Source: Saprospiraceae bacterium
GTDB taxonomy: Bacteria > Bacteroidota > Bacteroidia > Chitinophagales > Saprospiraceae
DNA length: 47,284 nt
Direction of reading: 5' to 3'
Assembly: GCA_029252685.1 (NCBI GenBank)
Contig: JAQXAY010000225.1
Coordinates: 1 to 47,284, forward strand
This document shows positions 20,184 to 27,845 of this stretch, in pieces (the first letter of the stretch is position 1; the number at the start of each line of letters is the position of its first letter). A program made the translations under genes and the position numbers. The notes under the pieces were generated by a model, which was not told the DNA's origin, did no database searches, and was given only the letters and a program-made list of their open reading frames with translations.

Positions 20184-21089
20184 TTATTTTCTTTCAAATT
20201 TATAGATAATAGCTTCTTGTGTCTTGCCTTCATTGCAAATATATAGATTTTCTGCTTTGTCAAAACAGATTCCTTCCGGTTGGATGAATTTTTCTTTATC
20301 GAGTTTAATAAGTGTATGTAACTGCCAGTCAGGCTTGAAAACAGCTAGCATTTTCCCAACGGAAGAAAGGACATAATACCGACCAGTAGATTCTTGAATG
20401 GCAATTGCTGATGGTTCAAATGAGAAATTCTTTGCGCTTGGACCGAATCGTTCTAACCATTTTTTTGATTTAGGTAATTCGGGATGTGCCTTTACAAAAC
20501 TAAAAAAGGAGTCCTTTTTGATCAGTATTGGTTTTTCCTCTAGTGTTTGGGTTTTGAGGTCAAAGCGGTAAATGGCTCTTTCTTGTTCTTCATCAGTGAT
20601 CTCTGTATTGAGTTTAGATGACGCTTTACAAGCAAGTAAAAGACTGTTTTGTTTTTTATCATAGCAGAGTCCTTCAACATCATTGCTAACTTCAAGTGCT
20701 GTATTGAATTTTTCAAACTCGATGGACTTTGCATTCAAGACATCTTTTATTAGATATAGGGTGCCTGAGCTTTTCAGGATATATAGGTCTTTTCCTATCA
20801 TTTCTACATCTTCATAATCTCCGTCTTTGTGGAATGTTATTCTGTTTAGAATTTTTCCAGTATTACTATCGATTAAGTAAATAATCCCTTTTTCATCAGC
20901 GATACCTATAAACTGTTGATTTTCTGAATCAATGCAGATTCCAGATATTTCATTTAACTCCTCTTCGAGGATTAGTTTCAATTCAGGTTGGTTGAGTGTA
21001 TAATCTATAGGGTAGTTAAAGTTCGGCTGACTTTTGCAGGAGAAAAGTATACTAGAGAGAATCGGAAAGAGGAGGAGTTGTTTTGTCAT
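20184..21089 (-). CDS. SdiA-regulated-type beta-propeller lipoprotein
   Basis: The 301-residue product has a lipoprotein signal (MTKQLLLFPILSSILFSC, lipidated Cys18). The mature part is made of repeated beta-strand motifs such as LNEISGICIDSENQQFIGIADEKG, YEDVEMIGKDLYIL and EGICFDKAENLYICNE, which fit the SdiA-regulated (YjiK-like) propeller family. No enzymatic residues are apparent, and the role in the envelope is unknown. The gene starts 2 bp after the stop of the cyclase/TPR gene on the same strand, so translation is probably coupled. A 111-bp gap separates it from odhB downstream with no clear terminator. Confidence 0.8.
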   Translation of the reverse strand: MTKQLLLFPILSSILFSCKSQPNFNYPIDYTLNQPELKLILEEELNEISGICIDSENQQFIGIADEKGIIYLIDSNTGKILNRITFHKDGDYEDVEMIGKDLYILKSSGTLYLIKDVLNAKSIEFEKFNTALEVSNDVEGLCYDKKQNSLLLACKASSKLNTEITDEEQERAIYRFDLKTQTLEEKPILIKKDSFFSFVKAHPELPKSKKWLERFGPSAKNFSFEPSAIAIQESTGRYYVLSSVGKMLAVFKPDWQLHTLIKLDKEKFIQPEGICFDKAENLYICNEGKTQEAIIYKFERK

Positions 21090-21091
21090 AA

Positions 21092-24000
21092 TTAAATAGT
21101 TGCTTTGGATTTCAAGGCATCAATTTTGATTTTAATACTGTAATCTGGGGTTACCTTGTATAGGGTCTGAAGTATGGACAGCGCTTCCGCTTTTAATTCT
21201 TCTGCTCCATAGATCAGATATTTAACGTAAAGCAAATGACCTTTATTTTCCGCTTTCAATGCTTCTTTATCTAGTTCGTCAATGATCTTGATTGCATCCT
21301 CTTTCTGCTCGATTTGAATAAGGTATGTTGCTTTGGTTAAGCTTAATTGAAAGAGTAACTGTGTGTTGTCTAATTTGTAGGCTATAGAGGTAGCTTCTTC
21401 TAGTATTGAAGGCATTTCTTGGTATTGTTTTGTTTCCAATAATACCAATGCTTTTTCATATAGGCTTTGTCCTAAAACTAATTGATTTTGTGTGACTTTA
21501 GTAAGTTGAATAGCTTGATCATAATAGTTTAGAGATTTTGGGTATTCCTTCAGGAAGTAATAGACATCACCAAGGGTATTTACAGCTTTAGCCTTCCCTT
21601 TTTTGTAATCTAGTTTTTCTGACAAGGTAATAGCCTTTTCCAATGTTGATATTGCTTCGTCGAATTCACCCATCTTACTTTGCAAATTACCAATAAGATT
21701 TAGGGCAATCGAAATACCTTGTTTGTCACCTAATTCTTCGGTGAGTTGTAAATCCTTCAGATAAAAGTCCATGGCCATTTTGTAATAGCCTTTCTGTTCG
21801 TGTAAACTTCCAAGGCTACCTGTTGCAATTGCTTTTAGGCGTTTGTTGTCGAGCTCTTCTGCTAATTTAATTCCAACCTCTAGAGACTCTTGGGCGCGTT
21901 CATTTTCACCTTTTTCGGTTAGTAGTATTCCTTTATTTATGGATAGATTGGCAATGCCTGTTTTATCTCCAATTGCTGAGCATTCGACAATTTGTTCATC
22001 TAGGTAGGTGATCCCTCGATCATAGTCGCCTAGATTCATATAGGTCAAGGCTAGGTTTGCGACGATCTGAGCATTTTTATCTCGATAGCCAACTTCTTTA
22101 CTTCTTTTAAGGCTGTTGATAAAGTGTATTTCTGCTTCCTTATACTCTGCTTTTCTGAAGTAAAGTAGGCCAAGGTTCCCAGATACTTTTGAGGCGCCGA
22201 CCTTATCGTTGATCAAGCTAAATAATTCAATGGCTTTGTCGAAGTAGAACTCAGCATCTCTATAATTCCCTAAAAGGAGATGTAGATAACCTAAGGAGTT
22301 ATTTGCACGACCCATTAGGGTCTTAGAATTTAATTTCTTAGATAAATGAAGTGCCTCACCATACGTTTCCCCTGCTTCTTCCCATTTTCCAGTAACCTGG
22401 AGGATCTCTCCGATTCGAATCAAAGCTTTGAAGTGTGCGGCATAATCTTCGTCTATGATTACAATATCAAGTAAGCGCTTGTAATATTGATAGGCTTGAT
22501 TATTCTGGAAATTATCTTTGAAGAAGTCTCCGGATCTTAATAGATATTCTTTTGTTTTTTCTGTTATTTCTGCGCGTTCATAGTGGAATACTAAGTCGAC
22601 ATAACGTTGTTGCAGACGATTCTGAAAAATTCGTTCTATCGAGTCTGCGATGACCTCGTGCAAGGCTTTGAGACGAGTATGCAACTGCATTTCATAGATG
22701 ACTTCATGCTGCATAGAATGCTTGAATAGATATCGTCCTTTGCTTACATTTCGGATAATATTATTCTTTTCAGCTTCTTTCAAGCTTGCTTTTAGGTTAT
22801 CAAAAGTCTCGTTATCCTCAAACAAGGATTTATTTTTTAGAACTTCTTCGAGTACTGAATACTCGAATTCTCTACCGATTACTGCAGCTGCTTTGAGCAT
22901 CTCTCTAGAATAGGCACCTAGATTATCCACCTTGGCAACTAATAAGGAGTTGATATTATTATTGAGTTTGATAGCACCTTCTTGAACGTGCCAAGTATCA
23001 TTTTTATAATTAAGTAATTGGTTTGATCTATAGTATTCAATCAGTTGCTCAATGTAGAAGGGGTTTCCATTAGAGGTTTGTTGCAGTAGGTCTAAACTTT
23101 CTTTTGATAGTTGTCCGCCTAGTATTTCACTACTGAAAGCAATTGTCCCAGACGTAGTTAGTGGATCAAGGTTTATATCAAGTATTGCTACTGGCTTGGA
23201 TAGATTTTGTAGGTTAAGGAATTCCTTTGGTTTGTCAATTCCATCTGGTCTGAGTGCAAAGAATATTATCAATGTATGGTCTGAAACTTCACGAAGTAGA
23301 TTAACAATAAGGTATTTAGAGTTATTGTCTAACCATTGTGCATCGTCCAAAAATAGAATTGTTGGATTTATTTTTGTTTGTAAGTGGAAGAATGTTGTAA
23401 ATGCTTTGATTACACTTTTGTTCTTTTCTTCTGCATTCAACCGTGAATAGATAGAATCATTAGAGGTCTTAAAGTCTAGTATTGCTTTGAATGTTGAATG
23501 AAGTCGTCCAAGCTCTTCTTTGATTTCCGGCCAATATATTTTAGACTGTTCTAAAATTGCATTGAAACCATTTTCAAAATTGCGCAATGCTGTTTTTTCG
23601 TCTTGGTTTAGTCTACAATTAAAATGTTTCCTAAGGTATTTAACAAATGGATTCAGTGGCTTTTTAAGAATCTGATCGGCTTCTGTAGATATCCAATTAA
23701 TTTTTTGAGAATGGTCTAGTTTTTTTTGTAATTCGTAACTTAGTCTTGACTTACCAACACCAGCCTCTCCTGTTAGAAAGCATAGGCCAGGTCTACTTGC
23801 ATGCTGATGTTTTCTGATATAGCTAAGCATCTTTATAAGTTCCTTATCTCGACTTATCAGTTTGCCTTTATATTCTGTGTTTTGATTTTCTTTTCGTTCT
23901 CTAAGTGCGAAAGTTTGAATTAGTCCCTCTATACCCTTGTATCGAATCTCCCCTTTATTCTCAAAATTAAAATTGGGATATCCAGCAATCTCTTCATCTA

Positions 24001-25087
24001 CAAATATTTCACCCCAATCTGCATAAGTCATAAGTCGAGCTGCCAGGTTGACACGATTACCTACTGCTGCGAACTGACTCATATTTTTTCCACCAACAGT
24101 TCCAGTGAAAGCTTGGCCTGATGTGATTCCTAATCTAAATTTTAGATTTTCTTTGCCGGACAGCTTGGCCCTTAGGGAATCTACAAATTCTAATGTCCGT
24201 TCAATATTGTTTTCAAAACTGATTGGTGCTCCGAATAAAGCGACCAGTACACCGCCTTTATCCCCAAAATCAACCTCTTTGAAATATCCCGAAAAATTGT
24301 AAATATCTTCAATGAAGATGGAGGCAAAGGCATTCAGTTCTTCGTGTGATTCTACGCCCTCAAAGGAACAAAATACGGAGATTATCGAACGGAATTCGCC
24401 CTTTCCTATAAAGTTAATTACAGCATCAGGAAGAAATTGGTAAGTTAGTTTTTGAATTTCAGGGGAGGATTTCTTTTGTTTGACAACTTCAGGCTTCTTG
24501 AGGCTATTTGATGTTAGTAGATAAAAGCCTTTTACCAGACTTGAAGTAGATACCCCTTTTGGCAATAATTTATTTAGATGTTTATCGAGTACGATTTCTT
24601 GATGTGATGCTCTGATCTGACTTTCTGCACTGTTCTCTATTGCTGGTCCTCTGAAATAAAAGGATTTTTGGTTTTTACCGATTATACCCCATTCTACTTT
24701 TCCATAGGAGAGCCCAATTTTTAAGCCAAATTTGAATTGATCAAACTGAAAGTTATTTTTTCCAAATAGGTTTCGAATGTCATTGGCAGCATGTAAAAGG
24801 CGACTTATGTTTTGATCATCTGATTCGGGAAAAATCGCTGTAAAGGCATCCCCCGCAAAATAGGGTATGAATCCCCCGTTATCATGGACCAGTTTTACCA
24901 TAGGTCCAAAGATTTTATTCAAGATATCAGATAATCGTTCAGCACCTGCACTACCTTCTTTCATTAGACTTTCTGTAAGCGGAGTAAATCCGGATAGGTC
25001 TAAGAACATAGTGCCAGCTACCAACTCACCTTCTTGCTGCTGAGATTCAAAATGCTCTAAAATGAATGTTGGTACTAAATGCTTCAA
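21092..25087 (-). CDS. Soluble adenylyl cyclase-like protein: two cyclase domains, AAA/NTPase, TPR
   Basis: The 1331-residue protein has no signal peptide or membrane helix. Domains in order: class III cyclase C1 (about 20-170), cyclase C2 (about 230-390), an AAA-type signalling NTPase (Walker A GEAGVGKS near 442, Walker B LFLDDAQW near 580) to about 850, then TPR repeats from about 870 to 1290. C1 has metal Asp30 (FLDLSGFT) and Asp80 (GDAFTAIF) but Glu155 where the catalytic Arg is expected. C2 has Ser241 instead of the first metal Asp but keeps Lys270, Asn347 and Arg351. The two should join to make one active site for cAMP synthesis. No in-frame ATG precedes the cyclase core; the start used is TTG at 25087. 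It leads the operon with the lipoprotein gene. Confidence 0.88.
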   Translation of the reverse strand: MKHLVPTFILEHFESQQQEGELVAGTMFLDLSGFTPLTESLMKEGSAGAERLSDILNKIFGPMVKLVHDNGGFIPYFAGDAFTAIFPESDDQNISRLLHAANDIRNLFGKNNFQFDQFKFGLKIGLSYGKVEWGIIGKNQKSFYFRGPAIENSAESQIRASHQEIVLDKHLNKLLPKGVSTSSLVKGFYLLTSNSLKKPEVVKQKKSSPEIQKLTYQFLPDAVINFIGKGEFRSIISVFCSFEGVESHEELNAFASIFIEDIYNFSGYFKEVDFGDKGGVLVALFGAPISFENNIERTLEFVDSLRAKLSGKENLKFRLGITSGQAFTGTVGGKNMSQFAAVGNRVNLAARLMTYADWGEIFVDEEIAGYPNFNFENKGEIRYKGIEGLIQTFALRERKENQNTEYKGKLISRDKELIKMLSYIRKHQHASRPGLCFLTGEAGVGKSRLSYELQKKLDHSQKINWISTEADQILKKPLNPFVKYLRKHFNCRLNQDEKTALRNFENGFNAILEQSKIYWPEIKEELGRLHSTFKAILDFKTSNDSIYSRLNAEEKNKSVIKAFTTFFHLQTKINPTILFLDDAQWLDNNSKYLIVNLLREVSDHTLIIFFALRPDGIDKPKEFLNLQNLSKPVAILDINLDPLTTSGTIAFSSEILGGQLSKESLDLLQQTSNGNPFYIEQLIEYYRSNQLLNYKNDTWHVQEGAIKLNNNINSLLVAKVDNLGAYSREMLKAAAVIGREFEYSVLEEVLKNKSLFEDNETFDNLKASLKEAEKNNIIRNVSKGRYLFKHSMQHEVIYEMQLHTRLKALHEVIADSIERIFQNRLQQRYVDLVFHYERAEITEKTKEYLLRSGDFFKDNFQNNQAYQYYKRLLDIVIIDEDYAAHFKALIRIGEILQVTGKWEEAGETYGEALHLSKKLNSKTLMGRANNSLGYLHLLLGNYRDAEFYFDKAIELFSLINDKVGASKVSGNLGLLYFRKAEYKEAEIHFINSLKRSKEVGYRDKNAQIVANLALTYMNLGDYDRGITYLDEQIVECSAIGDKTGIANLSINKGILLTEKGENERAQESLEVGIKLAEELDNKRLKAIATGSLGSLHEQKGYYKMAMDFYLKDLQLTEELGDKQGISIALNLIGNLQSKMGEFDEAISTLEKAITLSEKLDYKKGKAKAVNTLGDVYYFLKEYPKSLNYYDQAIQLTKVTQNQLVLGQSLYEKALVLLETKQYQEMPSILEEATSIAYKLDNTQLLFQLSLTKATYLIQIEQKEDAIKIIDELDKEALKAENKGHLLYVKYLIYGAEELKAEALSILQTLYKVTPDYSIKIKIDALKSKATI

Positions 25088-25133: not shown

Positions 25134-25370
25134 GGCTCAAAGCATGAGTATCGCTTCTCTTTTTATTAGTTACAGATTGTGATAAAGCGCATATGGATTA
25201 ATTTGTTTTGTATTAGCATAACAAGTTGTTTGTGGGTGCTAAAAACAATCTCATGGTAAAAAAAAGACCATTCGTCTAATAAAAAATTGAGATAATGGTA
25301 AAAGTTAGGACATTTGACCTTCTTTCAAACCCCAGATTTTTAAGAATAAGTCTTTATGCTAAATTATTCC

Positions 25371-27845
25371 ATGAAAAGAATCGTAATAATAATTCTTGCA
25401 ATCTTTAGTTCTGTTATTTATTCATCTGCTCAGTATGACCCAGGTGGCAGTAAATCTTTTCAGATAAATAAATCAGCAGAGGGTGTAAAAGTAGACGGTG
25501 TTCTTGATGAACCTCAATGGCTTTCTGCGCAGAAGATTGATGATTTTGTGGTGAGTACACCCAATTATGGGGACAGTGGAACATACCAGACTGAGGTAAA
25601 AATGTTCTACACCGATCAAGCTGTTTATATTTCTGCTTATCTGAAAGATGAGGAACCACAGCAGATCCTTAAGGAGATAACAAAACGCGATCAGTTAGGA
25701 AATACAGATTTTTTCGGTTTTCTGATTGATTCTTATCAAGATGGTATAAATGCTTTAGGGTTTTATATAACACCTACAGACGTTCAATATGATATAAAGT
25801 ATTCTGCCGACGCAGATGGAGGGGGCTACAGTCCGATCATGGACGGTGATAAGTCTTGGGACGCAGTCTGGAATGCAAAATCTAAAATTGTAGAAGACGG
25901 TTGGATTGCTGAGTTTGAAATTCCATTAGCAGCCTTGAGGTTTCCTACTAAGGAGATTCAAAGTTGGAATATTAATTTTTACAGACACTTTAGAAGGAAC
26001 AGAGAGGATATATTTTGGAATCCTGTAAACCCTGAAGTTTTTGGTTTGGTCAATCAGTCAGGTACTGTTCATGGCATAGAATCAATTAAATCACCGGTTA
26101 GACTACAGGCAACTCCTTATGTTACGTCTTATGTCAATAATGTAAAAGATGGAGGAGAAACTCAGTGGGGTAGTTCGTTTAATGGAGGGATGGATATTCG
26201 ATATGGTATCAATGACGCTTTTACTTTAGACATGACATTGATTCCTGATTTTGGAGAGGCTATTTCGGATAATCAAGTCCTGAATTTATCTCCATTTGAG
26301 GTTCGCTTCAATGAAAATCGACAATTTTTTAAAGAAGGAATTGAGCTCTTCAATAAAGGGAATCTCTTTTATTCAAGAAGGATTGGTAGTACACCCTTGA
26401 ATTATTATGATTTAGACTCGAGGCTTTCTGAAGGAGATTCTATTTTGTCCAACCCTTCGGAAACACAATTGATAAATGCTACGAAGATATCAGGACGAAA
26501 CTCAAATGGCTTGGGAATTGGAGTTTTTAATGCTGTTTCAGGCAGGATTCTTGCTGAGGTAGTTGATGAAGAGGGAGTTGTTCGAGAAGAGATGACTAAT
26601 CCACTGACCAATTACAATGTGTTGGTTTTGGATCAGAACTTAAAAAATAATTCGTCTATTTCTCTGGTTAATACAAATGTATATCGGGCCGGAATGGATT
26701 ATGATGCCAATGTAACGGCGGGTTTGTTTAACCTGTTTACAAAGAATACAACCTATAATCTTGGAGGTTTTTATAAGCTTTCACAAAAGTATTATGCCGA
26801 TAGTACTGCGCTTGGGCATTCTGGGGAGATTCGTTTTGAGAAGCCCACAGGCAATCTAATCTATGAGCTTACTTACACCTCAGAAAGTGATACTTACGAC
26901 CCAAATGACTTGGGCTTTTTATACAATAATAATTCTAGAGAATTGTTTGGGCGTTTCTTTTATAGGGAATTTAATCCCAAGAATGAAAATCTGACAAGCT
27001 GGAGATTTACAGGATCCTTGAAATATGCACGCGTCTTTGAACCCAATGCATTTTCAGATCTTTATTTTAGAACATGGGGTAATGTGATCAATAAAAACTT
27101 CAACGTTTTTGGGTGGTGGTTCAATGGATTTGCAACAGAAAGTAATGACTATTTTGAAGCACGTACACCGGGTCGTGTATTTAAAAAACCTTCAGACATT
27201 GCCACGGGTCCATATATTTCTACGGACTACAGAAAAAGATTAAGTATGGATCTTTATGGTGGCTTCCGATACATTTCAGAGTGGGAAGATGCTATGAACT
27301 TTGATGTTAATTTTGGACCTAGGTTCAGGGTTAATGATCGGGTATTTTTAGAATGGGATATTGACCTAGAGTACTATCTAAAGGAGCGTGGTTTCGTTGA
27401 TAATTATACCGATGCTGATGGAGTAGATCAAATACTTTTTGGGATTAGGGACAGGAAAGCTCTGGAAAATAGTTTGAGGCTTCGTTATTCTTTTACTTCA
27501 AATATGACATTGAACTTAAGAGCACGCCATTACTGGAGTATAGCTGATTATTATGGTTTCGCAAACTTAGACCAAGACGGATATTTAAGCGACGTGGTTG
27601 TTGAGAACACTTTTGACAGAAGTTTCACTTCTTTTTTAGTGGATGCTGTCTTTCAATGGCGCTTTGCACCAGGATCGGATATTTTTATTGTGTGGAAGAA
27701 TTCAATTGATGCCTATCAAACGGATCAGGATAGGTTGCCTTATGACTATGGAGATAATTTTGCTTACCTGAGCGATTTCCCTGTCTATAATACCTTATCG
27801 TTTAAGTTGATTTACTTTCTAGATTACAACAGAATAGTTAAATAA
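25371..27845 (+). CDS. DUF5916 outer-membrane protein with CBM9-like N-terminus
   Basis: The start is placed at ATG 25371 (MKRIVIIILAIF to YSSAQ), the signal peptide; an ATG five codons earlier at 25356 is less likely. The 824-residue product begins with a CBM9-like beta-sandwich (VDGVLDEPQWLSAQK, FFGFLIDSYQDGINA, GWIAEFEIPLAALRF) to about residue 210. It continues with a DUF5916 region (FNENRQFFKEGIELF) and many alternating strands that look like an outer-membrane beta-barrel, ending in a typical aromatic/basic strand. Members occur throughout Bacteroidota; the function is not established, though carbohydrate binding or transport is often suggested. It is a single-gene unit closed by a bidirectional terminator. 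Confidence 0.85.
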   Translation: MKRIVIIILAIFSSVIYSSAQYDPGGSKSFQINKSAEGVKVDGVLDEPQWLSAQKIDDFVVSTPNYGDSGTYQTEVKMFYTDQAVYISAYLKDEEPQQILKEITKRDQLGNTDFFGFLIDSYQDGINALGFYITPTDVQYDIKYSADADGGGYSPIMDGDKSWDAVWNAKSKIVEDGWIAEFEIPLAALRFPTKEIQSWNINFYRHFRRNREDIFWNPVNPEVFGLVNQSGTVHGIESIKSPVRLQATPYVTSYVNNVKDGGETQWGSSFNGGMDIRYGINDAFTLDMTLIPDFGEAISDNQVLNLSPFEVRFNENRQFFKEGIELFNKGNLFYSRRIGSTPLNYYDLDSRLSEGDSILSNPSETQLINATKISGRNSNGLGIGVFNAVSGRILAEVVDEEGVVREEMTNPLTNYNVLVLDQNLKNNSSISLVNTNVYRAGMDYDANVTAGLFNLFTKNTTYNLGGFYKLSQKYYADSTALGHSGEIRFEKPTGNLIYELTYTSESDTYDPNDLGFLYNNNSRELFGRFFYREFNPKNENLTSWRFTGSLKYARVFEPNAFSDLYFRTWGNVINKNFNVFGWWFNGFATESNDYFEARTPGRVFKKPSDIATGPYISTDYRKRLSMDLYGGFRYISEWEDAMNFDVNFGPRFRVNDRVFLEWDIDLEYYLKERGFVDNYTDADGVDQILFGIRDRKALENSLRLRYSFTSNMTLNLRARHYWSIADYYGFANLDQDGYLSDVVVENTFDRSFTSFLVDAVFQWRFAPGSDIFIVWKNSIDAYQTDQDRLPYDYGDNFAYLSDFPVYNTLSFKLIYFLDYNRIVK

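Follow-up and report, generated by a model that had tools for sequence, protein, structure and literature searches.

Does a bacterial protein that is built like animal soluble adenylyl cyclase (sAC) also make the same product? The question is raised by a gene in a Saprospiraceae genome (assembly GCA_029252685.1; 3.44 Mb in 297 contigs), on contig JAQXAY010000225.1, whose 47,284 nucleotides were analysed as a whole and are called the window here. An original prediction, made from the sequence alone, had described there a chain with two class III cyclase domains and had implied an adenylyl cyclase (AC) regulated by bicarbonate. We judge it moderately likely that the protein is instead a single-chain, sAC-type class III cyclase that prefers GTP, makes cyclic GMP (cGMP) and is gated by a STAND/TPR module.

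The predicted layout of the 1331-residue chain at 21092-25087 stands, with the addition that the gene lies on the minus strand, which had been left unstated. It is one open frame, and the TTG start is credible because a nearly invariant Met occupies the first position in family alignment A1. The Pfam scan found Guanylate_cyc in two stretches (E 1.3e-19, 71 bits against a cut-off of 21.9, as in class III cyclases), AAA_16 at 409-607 and many TPRs. The highest mean hydropathy over 19 residues is 1.3, which argues that the protein is probably soluble.

21092..25087, minus strand: whole cyclase gene (1331 aa; TTG start, TAA stop at 21094-21092).
24503..25087, minus strand: C1 cyclase domain, the predicted metal-binding half, residues ~1-195 (sAC C1 alignment and fold).
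23888..24445, minus strand: C2 cyclase domain, the predicted base- and transition-state-binding half, residues ~215-400 (Pfam PF00211, sAC C2 alignment and fold).

Human sAC was the best match in the PDB for residues 1-400 both as a single sequence (E 1.5e-18) and as a family profile (E 3.3e-57 to 1.5e-56), C1 aligning to C1 and C2 to C2. An AlphaFold2 (AF2) model of residues 1-400, built from 47 family sequences, reached a pLDDT of 93.1 and a pTM of 0.91. In a single superposition, residues 1-399 of this model were placed on residues 15-466 of human sAC (Z 42.1, root mean square deviation (rmsd) 2.4 Å, 391 residues, 22% identity; VIA-align). As both sAC domains are covered jointly, C1 and C2 pair in an sAC-like manner in the model, giving two collinear cyclase domains that are predicted to pair within one chain. 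Neither of the outcomes named beforehand as damaging, domains that do not pair or metal Asp residues in neither domain, was seen.

Conservation was read from 165 rows: the profile picked up 210 frames, counting human sAC; of these, 203 spanned both ends, and duplicate removal left 165, with the window among them. Setting aside 9 single-domain cyclases without C1 columns gave 156 tandem rows, which include the window and human sAC. A Saprospiraceae set of 100 rows comprises the window, the loci from the search of its own family, and the named loci except eight from elsewhere (38-43% identity to the window over residues 1-400); the named loci are 80 of at least 485 relatives, and most are titled Saprospiraceae or Lewinella-type, hence the name of the set. 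Among the named loci, the nearest relative is ‘Sphingobacteriales bacterium isolate AM_2324’ (91% identity over residues 1-400). Over 693 codons, the nearest orthologue is 88% identical to the window, with 77, 34 and 376 differences at codon positions 1, 2 and 3, respectively, and a dN of 0.073.

The residues of a class III active site are divided between the two domains:

24998..25000, minus strand: Asp30 codon, predicted metal ligand (= sAC Asp47), 156/156 tandem rows.
24848..24850, minus strand: Asp80 codon, predicted metal ligand (= sAC Asp99), 156/156 tandem rows.
24047..24049, minus strand: Asn347 codon (= sAC Asn412), 155/156 tandem rows.
24035..24037, minus strand: Arg351 codon, predicted transition-state Arg (= sAC Arg416), 156/156 tandem rows.

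Two metal Asp residues, an Asn and an Arg are thus available for one site. The reverse set is degenerate: Ser241 of C2 occupies the position of the first metal Asp, where Asp occurs in 2 of the 156 tandem rows, and Glu155 of C1, aligned with sAC Leu177, occupies that of the catalytic Arg, which is Arg in 9 of the 156. These assignments had been made by eye and were borne out, with the qualification that Glu155 itself is not conserved (Glu 20, Gln 22 and Arg 5 among the 100 Saprospiraceae-set rows). In 18 extra rows from another phylum, some of which are a single gene counted twice, both Asp residues were present in 18/18, Asn in 18/18 and Arg in 17/18. A single active site formed from complementary halves within one chain, as originally proposed, is therefore well supported by the conservation of the split residues and by the predicted structure: C1 (Asp30, Asp80) would hold the metals and C2 (Asn347, Arg351) the ribose and the transition state, the pair closing into one catalytic and one degenerate site. 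The same counts make it very improbable that the cyclase pair is a nucleotide-sensing pseudo-enzyme that binds NTP without turnover, as a pseudo-enzyme family should lose some of these residues; they are kept in the tandem rows. In its favour, the fold also matches 6yii, an ATP-binding protein from Pseudomonas aeruginosa described by its title as class III cyclase-like (Z 26.6, 349 residues).

Which base this site would accept depends on two further positions of C2. According to excerpts of the literature, ACs use Lys and Asp, guanylyl cyclases (GCs) have Glu in place of the Lys with a partner that varies (C, S, T, H, A or G), the bacterial Cya2 has a Glu-Gly pair (PMC4215837), and contact of the Glu with guanine N1/N2 is called the major determinant (PMC7384201). 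The corresponding codons in the window are:

24275..24277, minus strand: Glu271 codon, base-recognition position (= sAC Lys334), Glu in 99/100 Saprospiraceae-set rows.
24278..24280, minus strand: Lys270 codon, neighbour altered along with 271 (= sAC Asn333), Lys in 99/100 Saprospiraceae-set rows.
24068..24070, minus strand: Ala340 codon, second base-recognition position (= sAC Thr405), Ala in 96/100 Saprospiraceae-set rows, 95 with Glu271.

A gapless HMMER profile alignment, MAFFT and hmmalign agreed in placing Glu271 at sAC Lys334 and Ala340 at sAC Thr405. All three reject the earlier assignment of Lys270 as the base-recognising Lys, which was off by one; Asn347 and Arg351, named along with it, are kept, and Ala340 had not been mentioned. 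The register is plain because two proteins from other phyla (L126 and L132) carry the motifs G-Y-F-N-K-I-D-F-G-D-K-G and R-C-E-Y-T, matching G-Q-I-N-K-V-F-M-F-D-K-G and R-H-E-Y-T of human sAC. Written as residues 270-271/340, the states in the Saprospiraceae set were KE/A in 95 rows, KE/V in 2, and KE/N, KE/S and FQ/A in 1 each. The other 65 rows had NK/T in 25 (including human sAC), DK/T in 9, various Arg/Thr combinations and others, with Glu in 3 (KE/T in L136, WE/S in L202 and L203); the 56 tandem rows among them had Lys/Thr in 25 and Arg/Thr in 11 (36/56). Among the 18 extra rows Glu was found in 0/18 and Lys in 9, the remainder being varied.

The adenine-recognising Lys and Thr of the sAC family are thus replaced by Glu271 and Ala340, that is, by Glu at the position of the base-recognising Lys and by a partner other than Asp. 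We read these two residues as a GC pair because they fit the descriptions excerpted from PMC4215837 and PMC7384201, and the replacement of Lys/Thr by Glu/Ala implies that the preferred substrate is probably GTP and the product cGMP; the adenylyl product implied by the original prediction is not borne out at this pair. It is unlikely, in our view, that the protein is an AC after all, with Lys270 or the backbone reading adenine and cyclic AMP (cAMP) as the product. Its closest solved relative is human sAC, Lys270 is conserved as strongly as Glu271 (99/100), and non-canonical ACs exist; however, the gapless alignment puts Lys270 at sAC Asn333, and the AF2 model predicts a strand over residues 268-273, on which 270 and 271 would be expected to point in opposite directions. 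The host genome, moreover, already has cyclases with Lys and Asp: read by eye, those on contigs C86 and C275 carry IKTIGD with YDVWGD or FDIWGD, the Lys/Asp pattern of ACs, and a cyclase fragment on C20 reads YDIWGD.

Among 150 genomes of the window's family, 70 had a single two-domain match with E <1e-60; among 296 genomes across the phylum, 3 had such matches, all three from the window's family. One sampled other phylum gave some match in 129 of 201 genomes, many covering one domain only. A 115-row tree was built without columns 270, 271 and 340 from 51 of the 95 Glu/Ala rows and 64 of the 70 others, thinned by identity and with the 9 single-domain rows included; it needs one change between Glu/Ala and Lys-or-Arg/Thr and puts human sAC, with unsure placement, on a long branch distant from the window clade. 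Trees without the nine single-domain rows had 106 rows; a tree constraining the 56 Lys-Glu rows together had a log-likelihood 22.8 above that of the free quick tree (p-AU 0.761). One switch close to the base of the window's clade, retained since, is the simplest reading, and L136 (KE/T) may represent an intermediate. The broader proposal, to which we give about even weight, is of a clade-wide bacterial sAC that moved from ATP to GTP once in the Saprospiraceae lineage, yielding a single-chain GC with a STAND/TPR sensor in parallel to the sAC homologue of Dictyostelium, the independence of the two being assumed.

The remainder of the chain suggests how such an enzyme could be controlled:

22928..23863, minus strand: STAND-type NTPase, residues ~409-720 (AAA_16, Walker A/B, fold matches).
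22478..22927, minus strand: helical linker, residues ~721-870 (AF2 model, confidence low in part).
21095..22477, minus strand: TPR array, residues ~871-1331 (Pfam TPR families).

Walker A (GEAGVGKS) lies at residue 440 and Walker B at 577. The AF2 model of residues 401-900 (pLDDT 84.0, <60 in parts) resembled 6mfv, a STAND protein with a TPR sensor (Z 17.8, rmsd 5.1, 353 residues), and 8bob, a maltose-system protein (Z 17.3, rmsd 5.6, 380 residues), so that both Walker motifs and a STAND-like fold with a repeat sensor are present; alignment A2 of this middle region holds the window and 43 of the 77 matching stretches. In sAC, too, the cyclase pair is followed by an NTPase and an extended C-terminal part. 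The predicted order cyclase-cyclase-NTPase-TPR is upheld by the Pfam matches, the Walker motifs and the sAC alignment and fold, and an sAC-like architecture is well supported on the basis of the models; we make no claim of novelty for the tandem cyclase-NTPase-TPR architecture as such. Judging by domain type, the STAND NTPase and TPR array would sense a protein or small ligand, and the nucleotide cycle of the NTPase would set the closure of the cyclase pair. The host genome has 11 cNMP_binding matches, so possible cyclic-nucleotide receivers exist, and one of these Crp/Fnr-type proteins is a candidate receiver for cGMP.

With Ala340 the pocket is left open, which bears on a dual or unusual base specificity (cAMP together with cGMP, or acceptance of ITP or pyrimidine NTPs). 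We regard this as improbable, since the retention of one pair in 95 of the 100 Saprospiraceae-set rows argues for one substrate. Weak PADLOC matches to Pycsar cyclases (best E 1.6e-11) point towards it, but these seem to reflect class III similarity in general, and the two neighbouring genes encode SdiA-regulated and DUF5916 domains, which we take to be unlike Pycsar effectors. An engineered Glu/Gly/Tyr cyclase did turn dual, according to an excerpt of PMC4215837.

Several points weigh against the preferred reading of a GTP-preferring enzyme that arose by one switch. An excerpt of PMC4215837 reports that changes at the base residues often cut activity without conversion, a triple mutant having become dual. 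The Cya2 Tyr described there as aiding GC activity would fall at Asn+3, a position taken by Ala350 in the window protein. Because the switch is a single event, the joint change at 271 and 340 cannot be counted as independent replicates. On the quick 106-row tree, Lys-Glu requires 2 changes and Glu requires 3, and Glu occurs with Thr340 in L136 and with Ser in L202 and L203. The cNMP_binding matches, finally, do not discriminate between ligands.

Bicarbonate regulation, the other property implied at the outset, was assessed at sAC Lys95 and Arg176, which we take to be the bicarbonate-binding residues. Their counterparts in the alignment to sAC are Tyr76 and Ala154; Tyr occupies the first of these positions in 90 of the 100 Saprospiraceae-set rows, and human sAC alone has Arg at 154 among the 165 rows. 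Control of the sAC type is thus not supported by the sequence of the window protein, against which it must be set that bicarbonate regulation is called conserved in sAC-like cyclases in an excerpt of PMC3085406.

Taken together, the protein shares with human sAC (ADCY10; core 4clk/4oya) the C1-C2 order, the fold of the pair, the metal Asp residues in C1, Asn and Arg in C2, and an Asp-Lys after the base position (sAC Asp339-Lys340, window Asp276-Lys277). It differs in having Glu271/Ala340 for Lys334/Thr405 and Tyr76/Ala154 for Lys95/Arg176, at 22% identity. The tandem proteins of Thermoflexia-, Anaerolineaceae-, Cloacimonetes-, Gemmatimonadetes- and Aegiribacteria-titled genomes and others are likewise two-domain cyclases encoded by long open frames, but they mostly carry Lys or Arg with Thr at the base positions (36/56 tandem rows), and several copies per genome are frequent. 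Cya2, a GC of Synechocystis, is a homodimer of single domains without NTPase or TPR. It shares the class III fold (2w01; Z 19.6 on the window's C2) and, in an excerpt of PMC4215837, Glu at the base position, where its partner is Gly as opposed to Ala in the window. The Dictyostelium sGC, an sAC homologue making cGMP, joins an sAC-like tandem architecture to GC activity (excerpts of PMC11988041 and PMC6660944), but it is eukaryotic, and a Dictyostelium GC is reported to have His at the partner position (excerpt of PMC4215837) where the window has Ala.

If the assignment is true, a dedicated cGMP signal would run alongside ordinary cAMP enzymes in the same Saprospiraceae cell. GCs are thought to be rare in bacteria, and a 2004 survey, as cited in an excerpt of PMC4215837, speaks of their dearth. 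Here one scaffold carries both versions of the base pocket among relatives, which allows the passage from ATP to GTP to be examined in naturally occurring sequences instead of engineered mutants. The assignment would also correct a likely misannotation, as the labels ‘adenylyl cyclase’ and ‘bicarbonate sensor’ fail at the deciding residues. Among open-licence PMC papers we found none joining guanylate cyclase with Saprospiraceae, and, among the matches listed, no title or abstract opening that describes the window's cyclase family; nothing on a tandem bacterial sAC was found in the searched passages of PMC2447327 and PMC9552081.

Two genes flank the cyclase:

20184..21089, minus strand: SdiA-regulated propeller protein, the downstream gene (Pfam PF06977), starting 2 nt past the cyclase stop.
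25356-27845, plus strand: divergent DUF5916 protein with a weak CBM9 match.

Homologues of the former were found in 20 of the 76 named loci having >=700 bp downstream, and of the latter in 17 of the 69 having >=1500 bp upstream, making the case for a conserved operon weak. A Pycsar defence cyclase seems unlikely, given weak matches to PycC models and these two neighbours. Two other assignments were tried and set aside: a TOMM kinase/cyclase fusion (TIGR03903), which scored 128.4 bits against an NCBIfam cut-off of 705.75; and a DUF2652 GC-like protein of Bacteroidetes, there being no DUF2652 in the Pfam scan of the window protein. The DUF2652 proteins treated in an excerpt of PMC4886424 have a Glu-Lys/Arg pair and were modelled as homodimers.

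Elsewhere among the relatives, the Trp-Glu/Ser of L202 and L203, from the phylum of an Anaerolineaceae-titled genome, may mark a second change to Glu that arose independently. A divergent tandem protein of the window's own family (L040, genome G012) has Phe-Gln/Ala and groups with distant bacterial rows, away from the window clade. A Cloacimonetes-titled genome has nine two-domain copies and a Gemmatimonadetes-titled genome four; both are grouped in one phylum, so these titles are rough. Their tandem copies (L170, L171, L206-L212, L214, L216, L218 and L220; genomes G442 and G443) have K, R, G, D and H among the base-pocket residues and form a natural series for base specificity. In the host genome, a TPR protein (L056:7898-10066, minus strand) and a regulator-propeller/Y_Y_Y protein (L057:3-3038, minus strand) each end in a C-terminal single cyclase domain of the Lys/Asp type.

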